NCBI GenBank assembly: GCA_015832175.1
Contig: WJXW01000002.1
Coordinates: forward strand, 1,984,001-2,048,000
Direction: 5' to 3'
DNA: 64,000 bases
DNA from: Paraphaeosphaeria minitans
Taxonomy: Eukaryota > Ascomycota > Dothideomycetes > Pleosporales > Didymosphaeriaceae
Shown: in pieces, positions 55,436 through 62,623 of the stretch
Position numbering within the stretch: position 1 is the first letter of the stretch
Layout of the letters: the number at the start of each line of letters is the position of its first letter
Translations under genes and position numbers: made by a program
The notes under the pieces: generated by a model
What the model saw: the letters and a program-made list of their open reading frames with translations, nothing else
Database searches by the model: none
What the model was told of the DNA's origin: nothing

Positions 55436-57785
55436 TTACACCGCGCCTTCAAAAAGATCGTCCGTCTCCGGCATCCTCTCCAGTGTCGGACTCAAGGGAC
55501 CTGTGTCGATGTTCGGCGCTACAGCACCTACGAGGCTTCTGCGATGGGCGCGTGGACTCGCATCCAGCGTCTCCGTCGCCTCCTCGACCAGCAAACTCTG
55601 CTGCATTTCCTCGACCTCGTCGTCCTCCCCAAGCCCGCGATTTGCGAGGCGCAGACCAAGGATCTGCTGCCGCAGCTCGTCGACAAAGTGCTGCATCTCG
55701 TCAAAGGGCAGGCGCACGGGGCCACCTTGGAGGCTCTCCGTACGCGCACCATAGAGTTGCAGCGCGGCTTCGAGGCATTTCTCCGCTTGTAGCGCTTTGT
55801 TTTGGCAGCGCCACTCTTCGGCGGCGAGGACAGCCCAGAAGGCTGCTTTCCGGCGTCTCGAGCCTAGTTTCAGGACCCCAAGACCAGGTCGGATGGAAAA
55901 GCACGCAGAAATGCGCTCCGTGATCAAGGCGGCGCCGATGGGTCCTACAAGATTCATCTCGAGGATGCGGGAGCCCCAGCGGGCGGCGTCATCAGTGGCG
56001 GGGGTGCCACGTAGGCGTAATAACTCCAAGGACAAGGCGAGGGTTCTCAGAGCATAGAAGGGTGTTGCGGAACGTTGGCGGTCAGTGTAGCTGTAGGTCG
56101 CTGATCGAATCCATTCGTCGATCTTCTCAGTGCGCATCTTAGTTGTGAGTGCGGTTGGGGAGAGCAGTGCGGAAAGAGCGGCCATTTCCATGGCACCTGC
56201 ATAGTGTTGCCATGCTTTGTCATTGTTGTAATCGGTGCATAGTATCTCGTATGTACTAAGTGCCAGCTTGGTATCCCGCAGCATGAAGCAGTAGTCAGCG
56301 AGCCGTCGCATCAGTGCTTCGGGAGCGTCTGGACGATAGAAGCCTCCAGTCGAGTCATAGTTGGAGTTTGATGAGGTGATCGTGTAAGTGGAGCTTGAGC
56401 GTGAGGAGCCGAAGGTGGTCCAGCGTTTTGAAAGCGACATGAAGCGGCCAGACAGACCACGACGACGAGCGAGTATTTGCTCATTCCATTGGTGGATGTT
56501 ACGCTCCATGTGCGGTACCATGGACTGGGCGACAAGCTCGCGAACGAAGGTTTTGATTGCAGTGACGTCCGAGTCAGGAATATATGGTGTAGGGTCGGTG
56601 AACTCGTCGGCGCTTTCTATAGTATGTTGTAAGCATCTTGTAAACACCATGAGTCAATCGGGAAGGCATACCTTGCCTTTGAATTTCCGCCAGCTCCTCC
56701 GAGGCGGACAACCATTCGCATTTCGGTAACGGTACGGCATCGTCGTCGGACGATATGCACTGTTGGCCTTTCAGGCGCAGTAGATGGCAGTTGAGCCCAA
56801 AATGTCTCTTCATAGCATCAAATGTTGTGTTCGATTTCGCAATGTCGCCTGTCTCCTCTTCATGGATGAAAACGTAATATCGCAAGAATAAGCCATCCAC
56901 CCATTGTGGAACCTGGAGGTCGCCTTGGTGCTGTCTATTGTACAAATCTCGGAGTTCTTCCACGGGCGTTGCGCTTCGCGAACTCGTCGCAATGACGCCT
57001 ACGACGGGATGCGCGAAGGTCTCGTGAGGTACCATAGGGAGGCCCGACAGTAGCCGTCGCAGGTACAAGGTGTAGAAGGGGGAATTGCCACTTTCTTGGG
57101 CAGCTGGGTCGTCTTGGTTCTGGTTGTCTGGCACCGAACCTGGGGCGCTGAATTCGGAGTACTGTAGATGACGTTCCACCAGCTCCTCGACCTGTGCAAC
57201 ATCGCCGCCCACGGGTCGTGGTCGCAATGGAGCGGATTCGGACGTGGGAGGACGACCCAAGACCTGGTCCATGCCTACGAAGCGCACACCAAAGTCCTCA
57301 TAGCTCTTGCTCGCCCCGACGCTGTCCCGTATTGTGACCTTGCCAGATAGCGCCTCTCCAAACGGTCGCAGGAGTTGTAGCAGGCCACCGTCCAGTCCTT
57401 TGCCACGTATCAATTCCTCCGTGTCCTTGTCGGCTACAACCACGACGTGCGGCGCATGTGCCTGTTGTATGAGGGTCCGGTGCTCGTCCGACACGCCGGG
57501 TGGCAAGCTACCCGGCGTGCCTGTGCCATTCTGCCGCGAGCCTGGAGAAAGAACGGAGCCAGGGCGTCCGGAAGAGGTTGGTGTCGCGGTGCCCGAGCTG
57601 GGCCGCGATGTGGATGTCGAGACGGTGGACTCGAACAGCTTGTACAGCGACGGGTTCGACGTCCGGAACGGCAGCGACGCGAGGGAGGAGGCGGGCGATG
57701 CTCGCTGCCCGGGGAGCACTATCGACGTATCCAGGTCGGCTGGATACTTGAGGGGCTTCGGCGTGGCATCTTGGATGGGCGTCAT
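55436..57785 (-). CDS. TRS85: TRAPPIII subunit TRS85 (TRAPPC8 type)
   Basis: Specific subunit of TRAPPIII, the Ypt1/Rab1 exchange factor for autophagy and early Golgi traffic. Exons are 56672-57785 and 55436-56616; the 55-nt intron has donor GTATGC and acceptor TAG, giving 764 aa. The first in-frame ATG after an upstream stop is at 57785 (MTPIQDATPKPLKYP). The first 110 residues are Ser/Pro/Gly-rich. Conserved TRAPPC8-like blocks follow: GKVTIRDSVGASKSYEDFGV, AHPVVGVIATSSRSATPVEE, RYYVFIHEE, then VRELVAQSMVPHMERNIHQW after the junction, SGRFMSLSKRW and RRLADYCFMLRDTKLALSTY with TPR-like helices. GTG at 57809 also lies in frame and is not used here. Confidence 0.88.
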
Positions 57786-58138
57786 GGGTGGCTCGGGCGG
57801 GGCGCCCACGAGGTTGAGGTTGCGCGCACACGTTCTGGGGGCGCCGGCATGTATGCTGGCACTGCGCGATCGTGTCCGGCGGGCAGCAACGGGCTACAAG
57901 GCGCGGGGCTGCGTTTGAGGCTCGGTTTGTGCTGGCGAGAGGTGGCCATGACCGCTGCGGCCGCTACGCATCCTGAGTGGACAGGACGGGCACACCTCCA
58001 TCACAGACCCCAAGCCCACCCACCGCACCACACTCACTCCTTTGGCCTGCACTGCCCTCCTGGACCACTGATCCGACTAACTACTTTAACGCCTGGGCCG
58101 TGCTTTGTCATTTAGATCACTTTTGTTGACTCATCCGC
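57786..58138. promoter_or_regulatory. Divergent promoter region TRS85 / CCA1
   Basis: 353 bp between start codons; GC-rich in the TRS85-proximal half, CT-rich near CCA1. No clear TATA. Confidence 0.4.
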
Positions 58139-60139
58139 ATGTCATTGATGAGTCGTGCCTTCCGCGTTTGCTCGTCACGAGGAATTTCTTTCTCTACCAC
58201 GCCGCATCGACTTTCACCTAAATCACAACAACTGTTCCTGCGCCCGATTGCTCAGAGTAGTCTCTACAACTCACGTCCACTTCGTTCATTCTCTCGCATG
58301 CCTGTGGGAAGGCTACCTTCACCTCTTCCGCAAGAACAGCCTGTTCCAAAACGGCGAAAGACTGGACCTTCTGAGCCTCGTTTCATAAGATCGTACAGCA
58401 GCATGGCGTCTCGGCCGGAGGCGAATCCAACCACGCTGGAGCTGACCGACGAGGAGACGAAGCTCCGCAATTTACTCCTTGCGGTTGCAGCTTACATTGA
58501 CCAGACTCCTGCCGCCGGGAGTGCTGGAGCATCTGTACCCGAAAACGTCGCGCAGGAGAAGATTGTGTTGCGATGGACGGGCGGCTGGGTCCGTGACAAG
58601 CTACTAGGGGTGGGTAGCCACGATGTCGATGTCGCCATCAACAAGATGACCGGTGAGCACTTTGGCTTGAAGATGCTCGAATATCTCAAAGTCCCGGGCA
58701 ACCTCGAAAAGCACGACTTCGGTGCAGATGAGAGCAGCAAGATCATTTCTGGGCTACACACCATCAAAGCCAATCCAGAGGCCTCCAAGAATCTGGAAAC
58801 AGCCACCATCAAGGTCATGGGCATTGACCTCGACCTTGTAAATCTTCGAAAAGAGACGTACGACGAAGTTAGCAGAAATCCGCAGATGGAATTTGGAACC
58901 GCCGAAGAGGACGCAATGCGACGAGACGCTACTGTGAACGCCATGTTCTACAACTTGAACACACAACAGATTGAAGACTTTACGGGTCGCGGTTTCGACG
59001 ACATGGCAGCAAAAACCATACGCACTCCTTTGGAACCCTACCAAACCTTCAAAGATGATCCGCTCCGAGTGCTCAGGCTGATTCGCTTCGCGAGTCGACT
59101 TGACTACATTATCCAACCGGAGACCGCAAAAGCTATGGCAAATAAAGATATCCAAGAAGCCCTCAAGATAAAGATCAAACGTGAGAGAGTAGGAATAGAG
59201 ATGGAGAAGATGCTCAGGGGGCCGGACCCCGGCATGGCCCTACGACTCATCGATGAGGCCGGTCTTTACGACACCATCTTTACCGATCCAACCCGAAAGT
59301 TAGAATTCCAACCTGATACCGAACACTACCGAAAGGGCTATCAGTTCATGACCGAGTGGATCAACGGAAAAGAAGGCTCAAAGTATCCGGCGATTCCTCA
59401 GACGCTGCTAAGCACCCGCGATGCAGATTCTGACGAAGAGTATCTAGCGTGGGTCTGCACCGCAGTGTTACCGTGGGCCGATGCTCCCACGGTTCCGCCT
59501 CCGAAGAAAAATAGACAACCTCTTCACGCGGCTTCCCTCGTGGCCCAGGAAGGCATGAAAGCCCCTAATCGAGTATGCGATGTTCTAACAGCATCCCTGA
59601 ACAACTATGAGGCTATAAGCCAATTAATAGGAGAGTGCCAAAAGCGACTTCCCAAAGAGGATCCTTCATCACCAGCTCAGAGGGAAAAGATAGGAATGGG
59701 GCTACGGAATTGGGGCCGCACTTGGAAGTCCCAAGTTTTCTTTGCGCTACTGCATGAAATTGTGTATGGCGAGCGTTCGACGGAGGGTACGTTTCCGCTA
59801 CGCACACTGCATTCTACTACTCTGACTAACTGATTCAGATGTTCTTCGCCAATATGACAACTTCCTTACCCTCGTCACCGACCTGGATCTTCTGGACGTC
59901 ATTAACCTAAAACCCCTCGTCAAGGGCACCGATCTGGCCAAGGCTCTCGACGTCAAACCTGGTCCGTGGATGAAGGACGCTCTCGATGTCGTCTTAGCCT
60001 GGCAGTTGCGTAACCCCTCCGTCACGGACCCAGCCGATGCAATAAAGGAAGTGAAAAAGACTAGCAAAAGTGAGCTACCCTCTCGACTGATTACCCACTT
60101 CCTAACGCTTACAATACGCCCTCTTTTTTCGCAGACTAA
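58139..60139 (+). CDS. CCA1: tRNA nucleotidyltransferase (CCA-adding enzyme), spliced form
   Basis: Adds and repairs the 3' CCA of tRNAs in nucleus, cytosol and mitochondria. Exons are 58139-59786, 59839-60069 and 60135-60139; removing 60070-60134 gives EVKKTSKN and TAA at 60137-60139, 627 aa. The N-terminus is basic, Ser/Arg-rich and mitochondrial-type (MSLMSRAFRVCSSRG). Further in-frame ATGs at 58298 (residue 54) and 58403 (residue 89, MASRPEANP) would give non-imported forms, as known for yeast CCA1. Catalytic parts: GGWVRDKLLG with DVDVAINK (metal-binding carboxylates), RRDATVNAMFYN, DPLRVLRLIRFASRL, and RERVGIEMEKML. The C-terminus PGPWMKDALDVVLAWQLRNP is the usual CCA1 end region. The frame also continues into TTI2 if the last intron is kept. 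Confidence 0.9.
60070..60134 (+). other. Optional 65-nt intron at the CCA1/TTI2 junction
   Basis: Donor GTGAGC, branch CTAAC (60102-60106), a T-rich tract and acceptor CGCAG. The length is not a multiple of three. It contains no stop in the shared frame, so retention keeps one open frame of 976 codons (SELPSRLITHFLTLTIRPLFS). Its retained reading includes IRPLFSQTK, which fits the start of the Tti2 domain. Splicing instead yields a stop two codons downstream. Confidence 0.75.
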
Positions 60140-61181
60140 GACAGATGCCATGGGAGACGACCCAGCGCCTTGGAAAATGCGCGAGAACAAGTCCTTCCTG
60201 GATTTGCTGCATTGGTGCTTAAGAGCGATGGATGAGAAGGATTTGCGAGAGTGGTTCAGGTTACTAAGGCCGCCAATTTTCCGGATGCTGGAGGATAGCA
60301 ATCTCGAATGGAAAGCCAAAGCGTGCCAGGTGATCACCCAGCTGGTGGGAAAAGCACCAGAAAATATCAAGGAAGAGTGTCGGAATCTATTTTCGGAAGA
60401 TCTGTTTGGGTGCTTCAACTACCTCCCTACTTTGACTCCAGTGTCAGATGCTGCGAGCTTGCTGGAACATGTGTATCCTGCTTTGATCTCGTTCGTGCCT
60501 GTAGCGGAGGAAAGACTTGCAGCTCAGAGAAGGCAGGCCGCGTCCCCAAAGGGTGAGGCACGTACTGACAGTTCGCAACTGAGCGAAAAGGACATCAGAT
60601 TCCTCGATAAAGTCATTCGACAAGGATTCATAACTGTCCTGCATCACTCTCCGACTCCAATAACTTATCCTGAACTCACCACTCTCGTTTTAAACAATCT
60701 GATTAGTCTGATCATTGCACAAGAGATAGAATGGGTAAAGCATGCCGACGAAATCCTACCATTACTCCACGACATACTCCGCGACAAATTCAGTCCTGCG
60801 CATCCCGAGCTGCCGCGAGCGGCAACCAAATGTTTCAGAACTTGCATCGCGAAGGGATGGCCTCGCATGGGTAAGTGTTCCCCCTGACCTCATTACACGT
60901 TGTTTACAGCTGACCACAACCCTACCTTAGATTCCAAGCGCTTGCAGGACGTGTATCTGTCCACTGCCACAGCTTGGGTCAACTGCTCAGAATACCACAC
61001 AAACCTAGAAAGCTTGGAGGGGCTGAGACGCGATTTGAAGGACACCACGTTGTATTTGGAGAGTGCTTTCAACAGGGATGGTATCGACATGGACACTGCG
61101 ACTTGGTGGACTGGAGAGAAAAAGAGGACTATGAAGGAGAACTCGCCTTGGAAAGACATGCTGGAGTCTTGCAGCAGATGA
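60070..61181 (+). CDS. TTI2: TTI2 (TELO2-interacting protein 2) part of a CCA1-TTI2 fusion frame
   Basis: TTI2 is a HEAT-repeat member of the Tel2-Tti1-Tti2 complex that matures PIKK kinases (Tor, ATM, ATR). Read without splicing the 65-nt segment, the frame runs straight on from CCA1 and exon 60070-60870 joins 60931-61181 over a 60-nt intron. The whole fusion from 58139 is 976 aa. Tti2-type features in order: IRPLFSQTK, PWKMRENKSFLDLLHWCLRA, LEDSNLEWKAKACQVI, FNYLPTLTPVSDAASLLEHV, FLDKVIRQGFITVLHHS, ITYPELTTLVLNNLISLI, HADEILPLLHDILRD and CIAKGWPRM. No N-terminal TTI2 start codon lies before the domain except in CCA1. ATG 60150 has a strong context (GCCATGG) but would lose the first conserved block. 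Confidence 0.8.
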
Positions 61182-61576
61182 GACCAGATTGAAAGCAAGA
61201 TTGCAGGCGTGACATGCACCACCAAAAACAGTATCTCTGCTTGCCACTCGTCATGCTTTACAATGCGACTTACCCCCTCGAATTGTCATTTTGTGATTTT
61301 GACGTTCCCCATAGACAGTTGTCGGGGAATCCTACTGCCTAGCTAGCGCGTCATTGCGCCCCGTTGCGGCAATTACGGCACATATAAGCTTACCTGCCCA
61401 TTATAGGTACTTAGTTGCTACCTATGACGGGAGCCAAGAGAGGCTCAGTCGTGTCGATACGAGGGAATCCACCGCAACAAGAGGCCCGAAGATGCTTGAT
61501 CCTTAAGAAGCTTACTGTTCAAGATGATGGAGAGGCTGCAGTGTCTCCCAAGGCCTAGCGGTGTAGACCCTCGAAA
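61182..61576. other. Intergenic region
   Basis: TTI2 3' flank and promoter of the secreted glycoprotein gene; no ORF of note. Confidence 0.4.
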
Positions 61577-62623
61577 ATGCGGACATCTACTTCCTCCACA
61601 ACATTACTCCTCGCAGCGTCAACACTACTTTCAGCACATGCACAAAACACCACCAACACAACTTCAACACCAAAGACCTGTGGCGGAGATATAGACTGGC
61701 TCAACACTGGAAACAGTTCCGCGAATTCGACCGGCCAGGTCGAATTCAGATGGACCAACAGCAGCGACTCCGAGCACCCTGCCTCGGACCCGTGGTACAT
61801 CTCCGTCACGGTCAACGACACATTGCGTAGAGGCGATTCCAGAACCTCCGCGTCCAACGGTGGAATCGAGCTACGCGGCTACGTCAGCGTGCCCGACGAC
61901 GTAATGAATGCGAGCCTGTGCCTGTACCAGTTCAGTAGCGCAAACGTGACGCTGGACGACAGCATCGAAGATGGCCTCGATTCCTGCGGCGGCGTAGTAA
62001 GCGACGAGTGCAAGGATCTAATCAAGGACAACTTCCTGCATGAGACCCAGCCGTCCGGATGTCCGCTGTACCAGAAGGCTAGCACAGACGGGGTTGATAC
62101 TTTCAAGAAAGCGTGTCCGAATTTGGTTGATTCCGCTTCCGGTAAGTTGACGCTATTCGCATCTAAACTTCTATTGCTTGGTTTCGTCGTTAAATTTGTT
62201 CTTATGAACATGATATGCTGACATCGCTGCGAAGTCCACTACAAGGACGTGTCGAATACGACGTGCGCCGCAACCGACATTCCCAGCGTCAATATCCCGG
62301 ACGGCTATCACTCTGTTCGTAGTGCTTCTATATCCAGCCCTTTTTCCGACTACAGTTATCAGCCGAACATGACCGAGACATACGATCTGCTCGTTCGTCA
62401 GACAGTGCCTTACATTCTGTATGGCAGGTTCGAAGATCCAGATTCGAATTCAGGGGAAGTTATGACCAGATTTATATGCGTAGCACCAAACCGAACGGTG
62501 GAGGGAAGTCGTGCTGTGCCGGAGGGCAAGGCGCCTTGGGAGGAGAGCAAGGGGGTGGGTTTGGTTGCAGGGAGGATGGCGGTGGTGATGGCAAGTATTA
62601 TGGGAGTCGTTCTCATCATATAG
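61577..62623 (+). CDS. Secreted, probably GPI-anchored glycoprotein
   Basis: Exons are 61577-62141 and 62235-62623; the 93-nt intron has donor GTAAGT and acceptor AAG, giving 317 aa. The signal peptide is MRTSTSSTTLLLAASTLLSA, with Gln-Asn after it. More than eight N-glycosylation sequons (NTT, NSS, NST, NDT, NAS, NVT, NMT, NRT) lie in the body. At least eight Cys are spread across it (TCGGD, SLCLY, SCGG, DECKD, SGCPL, KACPN, TTCAA, FICVA). The C-terminus is hydrophobic to the last residue (AGRMAVVMASIMGVVLII) after a short polar spacer, as in GPI signals. No catalytic motif. A cell-surface protein of unknown role. Confidence 0.8.

Follow-up and report, generated by a model that had tools for sequence, protein, structure and literature searches.

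The locus consists of a CCA1 gene running into a TTI2 gene, with two readings arising from one intron, as our analysis confirms. CCA1 is the CCA-adding enzyme (tRNA nucleotidyltransferase), which finishes the ends of tRNAs, and Tti2 is a subunit of the TEL2-TTI1-TTI2 (TTT) complex, a chaperone for the TOR, ATM and ATR kinases; both proteins are essential in yeast. The locus was picked post hoc from the window, i.e. the whole 64-kb stretch of DNA that was analysed. CCA1 starts at 58139 on the + strand, and its frame is open through a 65-nt segment (60070-60134) into TTI2, ending at 61181. The original prediction of an open CCA1 frame across this segment into the Tti2 domain was correct in its coordinates and reading, as checked by translation. 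Its further course to 61181 is not uninterrupted, since another intron (60871-60930) is needed there. The features are as follows.

58139..59786, + strand: CCA1 exon 1, with the N-terminal extension, the PolyA_pol head domain and the RNA-binding domain (translation, Pfam, S. pombe chains)
59787..59838, + strand: intron 1, an ordinary intron of 52 nt, GTACGT...CTAAC...CAG (sequence, splice score)
59839..60069, + strand: CCA1 exon 2, encoding the C-terminal domain, in a frame common to the fusion (translation, S. pombe alignment)
59970..59972, + strand: ATG in the Tti2 frame inside CCA1 exon 2 (sequence)
60070..60134, + strand: candidate optional intron of 65 nt, GTGAGC...CTAAC...pyrimidine-rich tract...CGCAG (splice score, recoding, residue shuffles)
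60070..60134, + strand: the same segment when retained, reading SELPSRLITHFLTLTIRPLFSQ with its first codon from 60069, Tti2-like (translation)
60135..60870, + strand: TTI2 exon, encoding the bulk of the Tti2 domain (Pfam Tti2, 126.4 bits for the reading cut at 60135)
60137..60139, + strand: CCA1 stop TAA, in frame in the spliced mRNA only (sequence)
60142..60144, + strand: second acceptor CAG, 10 nt downstream of the first (sequence; its strength is unscored)
60150..60152, + strand: ATG in the Tti2 frame, in the context GCCATGG (sequence)
60871..60930, + strand: intron 3, an ordinary intron of 60 nt, GTAAGT...TTAG (sequence, splice score)
60931..61181, + strand: last TTI2 exon, including the stop (translation)

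With the segment kept and intron 3 removed, translation gives a CCA1-Tti2 reading of 976 residues. With the segment removed, CCA1 has 627 residues and ends in ...KKTSKN*, and the translation confirms the predicted junction of AAC followed by TAA. Only one of the three introns placed at the locus, namely the one at 60070-60134, can be read through; retention of intron 1 leads to a stop 44 nt after the intron start, and retention of intron 3 to a stop 14 nt after its start. By arithmetic, a frame open over 22 codons in the correct phase is a ~1-in-8 event, and the open frame taken alone is weak evidence. The stretch 60134-60152 is crowded: the first acceptor is followed within 18 nt by the stop of CCA1, another acceptor that keeps the frame, and two ATGs, one out of frame and one in frame.

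The CCA1 part is predicted to add CCA to tRNA. In the 976-aa reading, Pfam finds PolyA_pol at residues 145-295 (77.9 bits) and PolyA_pol_RNAbd at residues 325-381 (27.3 bits), and a tRNA_NucTran2_2 match falls below the cut-off (25.5 vs 27). Compared with solved structures, the CCA1 part matches the S. pombe Cca2 chain 9ns4 over residues 105-610 (E 8.5e-75) and the Cca1 chain 9ns2 over residues 142-613 (E 1.8e-71), so that, as expected for a CCA-adding enzyme, the head domain is present and the protein resembles solved fungal enzymes along its length. Past the last aligned residue the spliced CCA1 has 14 further residues in the Cca1 alignment and 17 in the Cca2 alignment, and the S. pombe chains, which may include tags, have 18 (Cca1) and 15 (Cca2). 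Since the alignments stop at 610 and 613 and are followed by similarly short tails, the spliced stop lies at the expected end of the enzyme, judging from these two proteins. The spliced CCA1 was originally said to end exactly where fungal CCA1 proteins end; measured against the two S. pombe proteins this holds to within a few residues, and the word exactly does not stand. The titles of the S. pombe structures name two proteins, cca1 and cca2; here the PolyA_pol family was matched at one place in the assembly, which is the CCA1-TTI2 locus, in an exon-by-exon search that scored the best candidates only. At the N-terminus (58139-58405, + strand), about 88 residues precede M89; they are rich in R and S and look like a presequence by eye. 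There are further in-frame ATGs in this region, e.g. that of M89, and alternative mitochondrial and cytosolic starts look possible. In yeast CCA1, alternative starts give the mitochondrial and cytosolic forms.

The Tti2 domain covers residues 616-868 of the 976-aa reading with 130.4 bits, against a Pfam cut-off of 25.2. We searched the assembly (47,450,912 bases in 30 contigs) with the profile exon by exon, scoring the best candidates only, and the Tti2 family was matched at one place in the whole assembly, i.e. the CCA1-TTI2 locus. A separate full TTI2 gene elsewhere, which the original prediction had named as speaking against the switch, was not found in this Pfam Tti2 search, and a second TTI2 copy was rejected on the basis of the single match. 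The partner Tel2 is encoded on a different contig from TTI2 (PF10193, 137.9 bits, contig C5), and the binding of this Tti2 to Tti1 and Tel2 is putative. Comparing Tti2 with solved structures by sequence found only MKK4, a weak match (E 0.97) that seems unrelated. A single-sequence AlphaFold model was poor, with a mean pLDDT of 58.3, and a Foldseek search with it found no match at E <= 0.001, the best 50 being mostly general helical-repeat proteins. There were 7 pattern matches in viral contigs and 63 in prokaryote contigs, none of them a relative, as expected.

The segment has the GTGAGC donor, the CTAAC branch site and the CAG acceptor that had been claimed for it, along with a pyrimidine-rich tract. 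For comparison we gathered introns by joining long open frames in the window and in 200 kb of this genome, requiring GTRNGN, CTRAY and YAG. Of the 52 joins, 45 had one solution and gave 44 distinct introns, a noisy set, and the 39 of up to 95 nt were used for scoring. The splice score of the segment is 20.5, higher than that of 15 of these 39 introns; intron 1 scores 23.8 and intron 3, itself among the 44, scores 26.3. The GTGAGC donor occurs in 3 of the 44. We then recoded the 270 nt of 59970-60239 synonymously 40,000 times. A site as good as the native one arose anywhere in 929 recodings (2.3%), and a site of the same quality with a stop within 3 codons of the junction arose in 144 (0.36%). 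When the codon order of the same region was shuffled, 425 of 40,000 trials reached the native splice score, and 51 of 40,000 did so with a nearby stop. Across 37 long open reading frames totalling 54,543 bases, the sites scoring at least as high as the segment numbered 8 in sense and 2 in antisense orientation. The rate of false sites is at most that seen in sense orientation, because two of the eight belong to the training set, a third shares its donor with a member of it, and others of the eight may be real read-through introns.

In its codon usage the segment resembles an intron, with a log score of -7.97. No window among 19 in CCA1 exon 2 and only 2 among 75 in TTI2 have a lower score, and 39 of the 44 collected introns have a score equal to or above it. 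The codon usage thus fits a plain intron better than a plain coding sequence. The distance between branch site and acceptor is 30 nt, as against 5-27 nt in the 44 collected introns, a collection that is blind beyond 29 nt. Such a long distance may mean that the segment is spliced weakly or not at all; for efficient splicing, neither this spacing of ~30 nt nor the GTGAGC donor looks ideal. The RNA around the intron folds no better than its shuffles (z 0.29 and 1.11), and therefore we claim no structural switch. Rfam gave no match at gathering scores over 57900-61600.

The retained reading of the segment could be assessed independently using the Tti2 profile, which we scored on the reading cut progressively from the left. 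The score is 135.4 bits with the left end at 59970, 135.0 at 60018, 133.6 at 60048, 132.0 at 60069, 129.5 at 60090, 127.5 at 60105, 127.3 at 60114, 126.4 at 60135 and 125.9 at 60150. Only ~3 of these bits come from the part of the CCA1 tail upstream of the intron, and we do not count them as evidence. When the 22 residues read from the intron were shuffled with their flanks intact, the score fell to 125.9-127.0 bits in 10 of 10 trials, vs 135.0 for the real order, and therefore the retained residues carry a signal of the Tti2 family. Shuffling all 44 residues before M60150 gave 125.9-129.3 bits, again in 10 of 10 trials. The loss of bits supports the proposal that IRPLFSQTK, encoded by the retained segment, is part of the start of the Tti2 domain. 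The retained, i.e. unspliced, reading contains the peptide sequence SELPSRLITHFLTLTIRPLFSQTK, and the stretch of the retained product across 60060-60150 includes the region of LITHFLTLTIRPLF. The splice evidence and the profile evidence thus independently support both readings of the segment, as a working-looking intron and as a retained part of Tti2.

Our analysis suggests that the segment may be an optional intron, spliced transcripts giving CCA1 and retained ones a fusion that contains full-length Tti2. This is a tentative reading, to which we give a probability of roughly 0.4. The locus would be one transcription unit with a coding, exitron-like intron at 60070-60134. Splicing would yield a CCA1 of normal length with its stop right at the junction; retention would keep the frame and supply an N-terminal part of the Tti2 domain. 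The segment would be removed in part of the transcripts, and the split between the products would be set by splicing efficiency. The spliced mRNA would then encode the tRNA CCA-adding enzyme and perhaps, through reinitiation at 60150, a little of the short Tti2, and the retained mRNA would encode the CCA1-Tti2 fusion, from which the TEL2-TTI1-TTI2 complex would draw its full-length Tti2. A splice switch between CCA1 alone and the fusion is plausible on these grounds. We infer that both transcripts exist, that the fusion may work in the TTT complex and that the ratio may be regulated. The stronger version is doubtful, namely that splicing of the intron is regulated and fixes how much CCA1 is free and how much is fused, that the fusion is the only source of full-length Tti2, and that the supply of the TOR/ATM/ATR chaperone would thereby be tied to the synthesis of tRNA ends.

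Exitrons are stretches within coding exons that have splice signals and whose retention keeps the frame, and the segment resembles them in both respects. It differs in being 65 nt long, which is not a multiple of three, and in that its removal terminates the protein at the edge of a domain, with no internal deletion. Among ten papers listed for exitrons, five use the term, four of these concerning plants judging by title or start of abstract. In this single genome, the splice score and the Tti2 signal are in line with an exitron, and the codon usage is intron-like.

An unlikely alternative is a constitutively spliced, bicistronic mRNA, in which CCA1 ends at 60137-60139 and reinitiation at the ATG at 60150 yields Tti2 as a 324-aa protein; that the intron can be read through would then be incidental or a relic. 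The ATG at 60150, absent from the original prediction, lies in the Tti2 frame 10 nt behind the spliced CCA1 stop, in the context GCCATGG, and the possible N-truncated product without the N-terminal segment keeps 125.9 of the 135.0 Tti2 bits. The intron-like codon usage of the segment also agrees with this alternative. In fungi, a 9-bp spacer derived from Glarea lozoyensis (IGG1/IGG6) supports bicistronic expression in yeasts, for which its authors proposed reinitiation, and gives a GFP signal in Aspergillus nidulans as well (excerpts of PMC10352335); in budding yeast, two reading frames with a short spacer occur on one mRNA (excerpts of PMC8573964). These cases share with the locus two frames and a short spacer on one mRNA, but the excerpts of both papers contain no intron that switches between separate and fused products. 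The bicistronic alternative, however, does not explain why translation across the intron gives Tti2-like residues, and the ATG at 60145, which is nearer but out of frame, would be a competitor of the one at 60150.

We consider it similarly improbable that TTI2 has a separate, overlapping transcript that starts inside CCA1 and uses the ATG at 59970, with the segment coding there, spliced out of the CCA1 transcripts, and no fusion made. The ATG at 59970 is the sole one in the Tti2 frame from the start of exon 2 (59839) to the segment, and would open a possible Tti2 of 383 residues. Residue 22 of this product falls on position 21 of the Tti2 profile, which makes it co-linear with the profile almost from its start. 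Against it, the start context is poor, with T at -3, and the residues following M59970 (MKDALDVVLAWQLRNP) are CCA1 sequence according to the S. pombe alignment. Since no other in-frame ATG in exon 2 lies upstream of the segment, the Tti2-like segment would be translated only by ribosomes in the CCA1 frame, starting at 59970 or further upstream, barring a non-ATG start. A TTI2 promoter between the two genes was rejected, as the spacer from the stop to the ATG at 60150 is 10 nt; a separate TTI2 promoter would therefore lie inside CCA1.

A constitutive fusion gene appears quite unlikely; the segment would then be plain coding sequence with cryptic splice signals, and a bifunctional CCA1-Tti2 would be the only product. 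Such a gene would account for the continuous frame, for the Tti2-like residues in the segment and for the fact that both domains were matched only once in the assembly, and sites of equal splice score do occur in long open frames (8 sense and 2 antisense per 54.5 kb). However, an equal site with a stop at the junction is rare under recoding (144/40,000), and the codon score of the segment is below those of 19/19 upstream and 73/75 downstream windows. Very unlikely is a tandem-acceptor switch, always spliced, either to 60134 (CCA1 stop) or through the CAG at 60142-60144 (a 75-nt in-frame intron and a 951-aa fusion without the 25-residue segment, also absent from the original prediction); the branch site, already distant, would be another 10 nt away from the second acceptor, and use of that acceptor would delete the Tti2-like segment. 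The ATG at 60150 would open a bicistronic route, and the second acceptor a further type of fusion. Even if the gene is bicistronic or a constitutive fusion, CCA1 and TTI2 are arranged in an unusual way.

The optional intron has a precedent in nit-7 of Neurospora crassa, a gene for the molybdenum cofactor, where one intron is retained or spliced to give either a protein of the first domain only or one in which both domains are fused (excerpts of PMC7232280). As predicted here, the choice is made by an intron in a filamentous fungus, between a single protein and a fusion, and a start codon for the second domain was also considered there, according to the same excerpts; the principle of a fungal intron choosing between them is therefore already known. 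In nit-7, as the excerpts describe it, retention gives the single protein through a stop in the intron and splicing gives the fusion, whereas the predicted logic at CCA1-TTI2 is reversed; both nit-7 domains belong to one pathway, but CCA1 and Tti2 belong to different ones. What is new relative to nit-7, as far as those excerpts go, is thus the predicted reversed logic, in which the stop comes into frame through splicing, and the fact that the partners come from different pathways. In human MOCS1, splicing likewise chooses between separate reading frames and a fused product (in part from excerpts of PMC7232280), although this is an animal gene with several splice routes and serves one pathway. 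As in nit-7 and MOCS1, a single protein and a fusion are both predicted from one intron.

In the open-licence literature we found no paper dealing with Tti2 and tRNA nucleotidyltransferase together, nor one with Tti2, Tel2 and CCA1 together, and among the matches listed there no title or start of an abstract has a CCA1-TTI2 gene as its subject; two of those matches, PMC12941056 and PMC2614481, mention Tti2. PMC3577648 was rejected as a report of such a gene, as the CCA1 in its excerpts is the Arabidopsis clock gene. PMC2911113, searched for fusions, held nothing relevant.

If the optional intron is true, two essential proteins of unrelated pathways would share one gene and an intron would pick the product, making a compact case of a splicing decision that couples tRNA maturation to kinase assembly. 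Automatic gene models may then show one or two genes at such a locus depending on a single intron call.

Next to the locus, a 411-aa open frame from a GTG (56574-57809, - strand) is divergent from CCA1 and presumably resembles TRAPPC8/Trs85. Behind TTI2 lie two neighbouring open frames on the + strand (61577-62221 and 62249-62623), possibly exons of one gene. By eye, 61577-62623 begins like a signal peptide and is rich in N, T and S, and perhaps encodes a secreted or surface protein.
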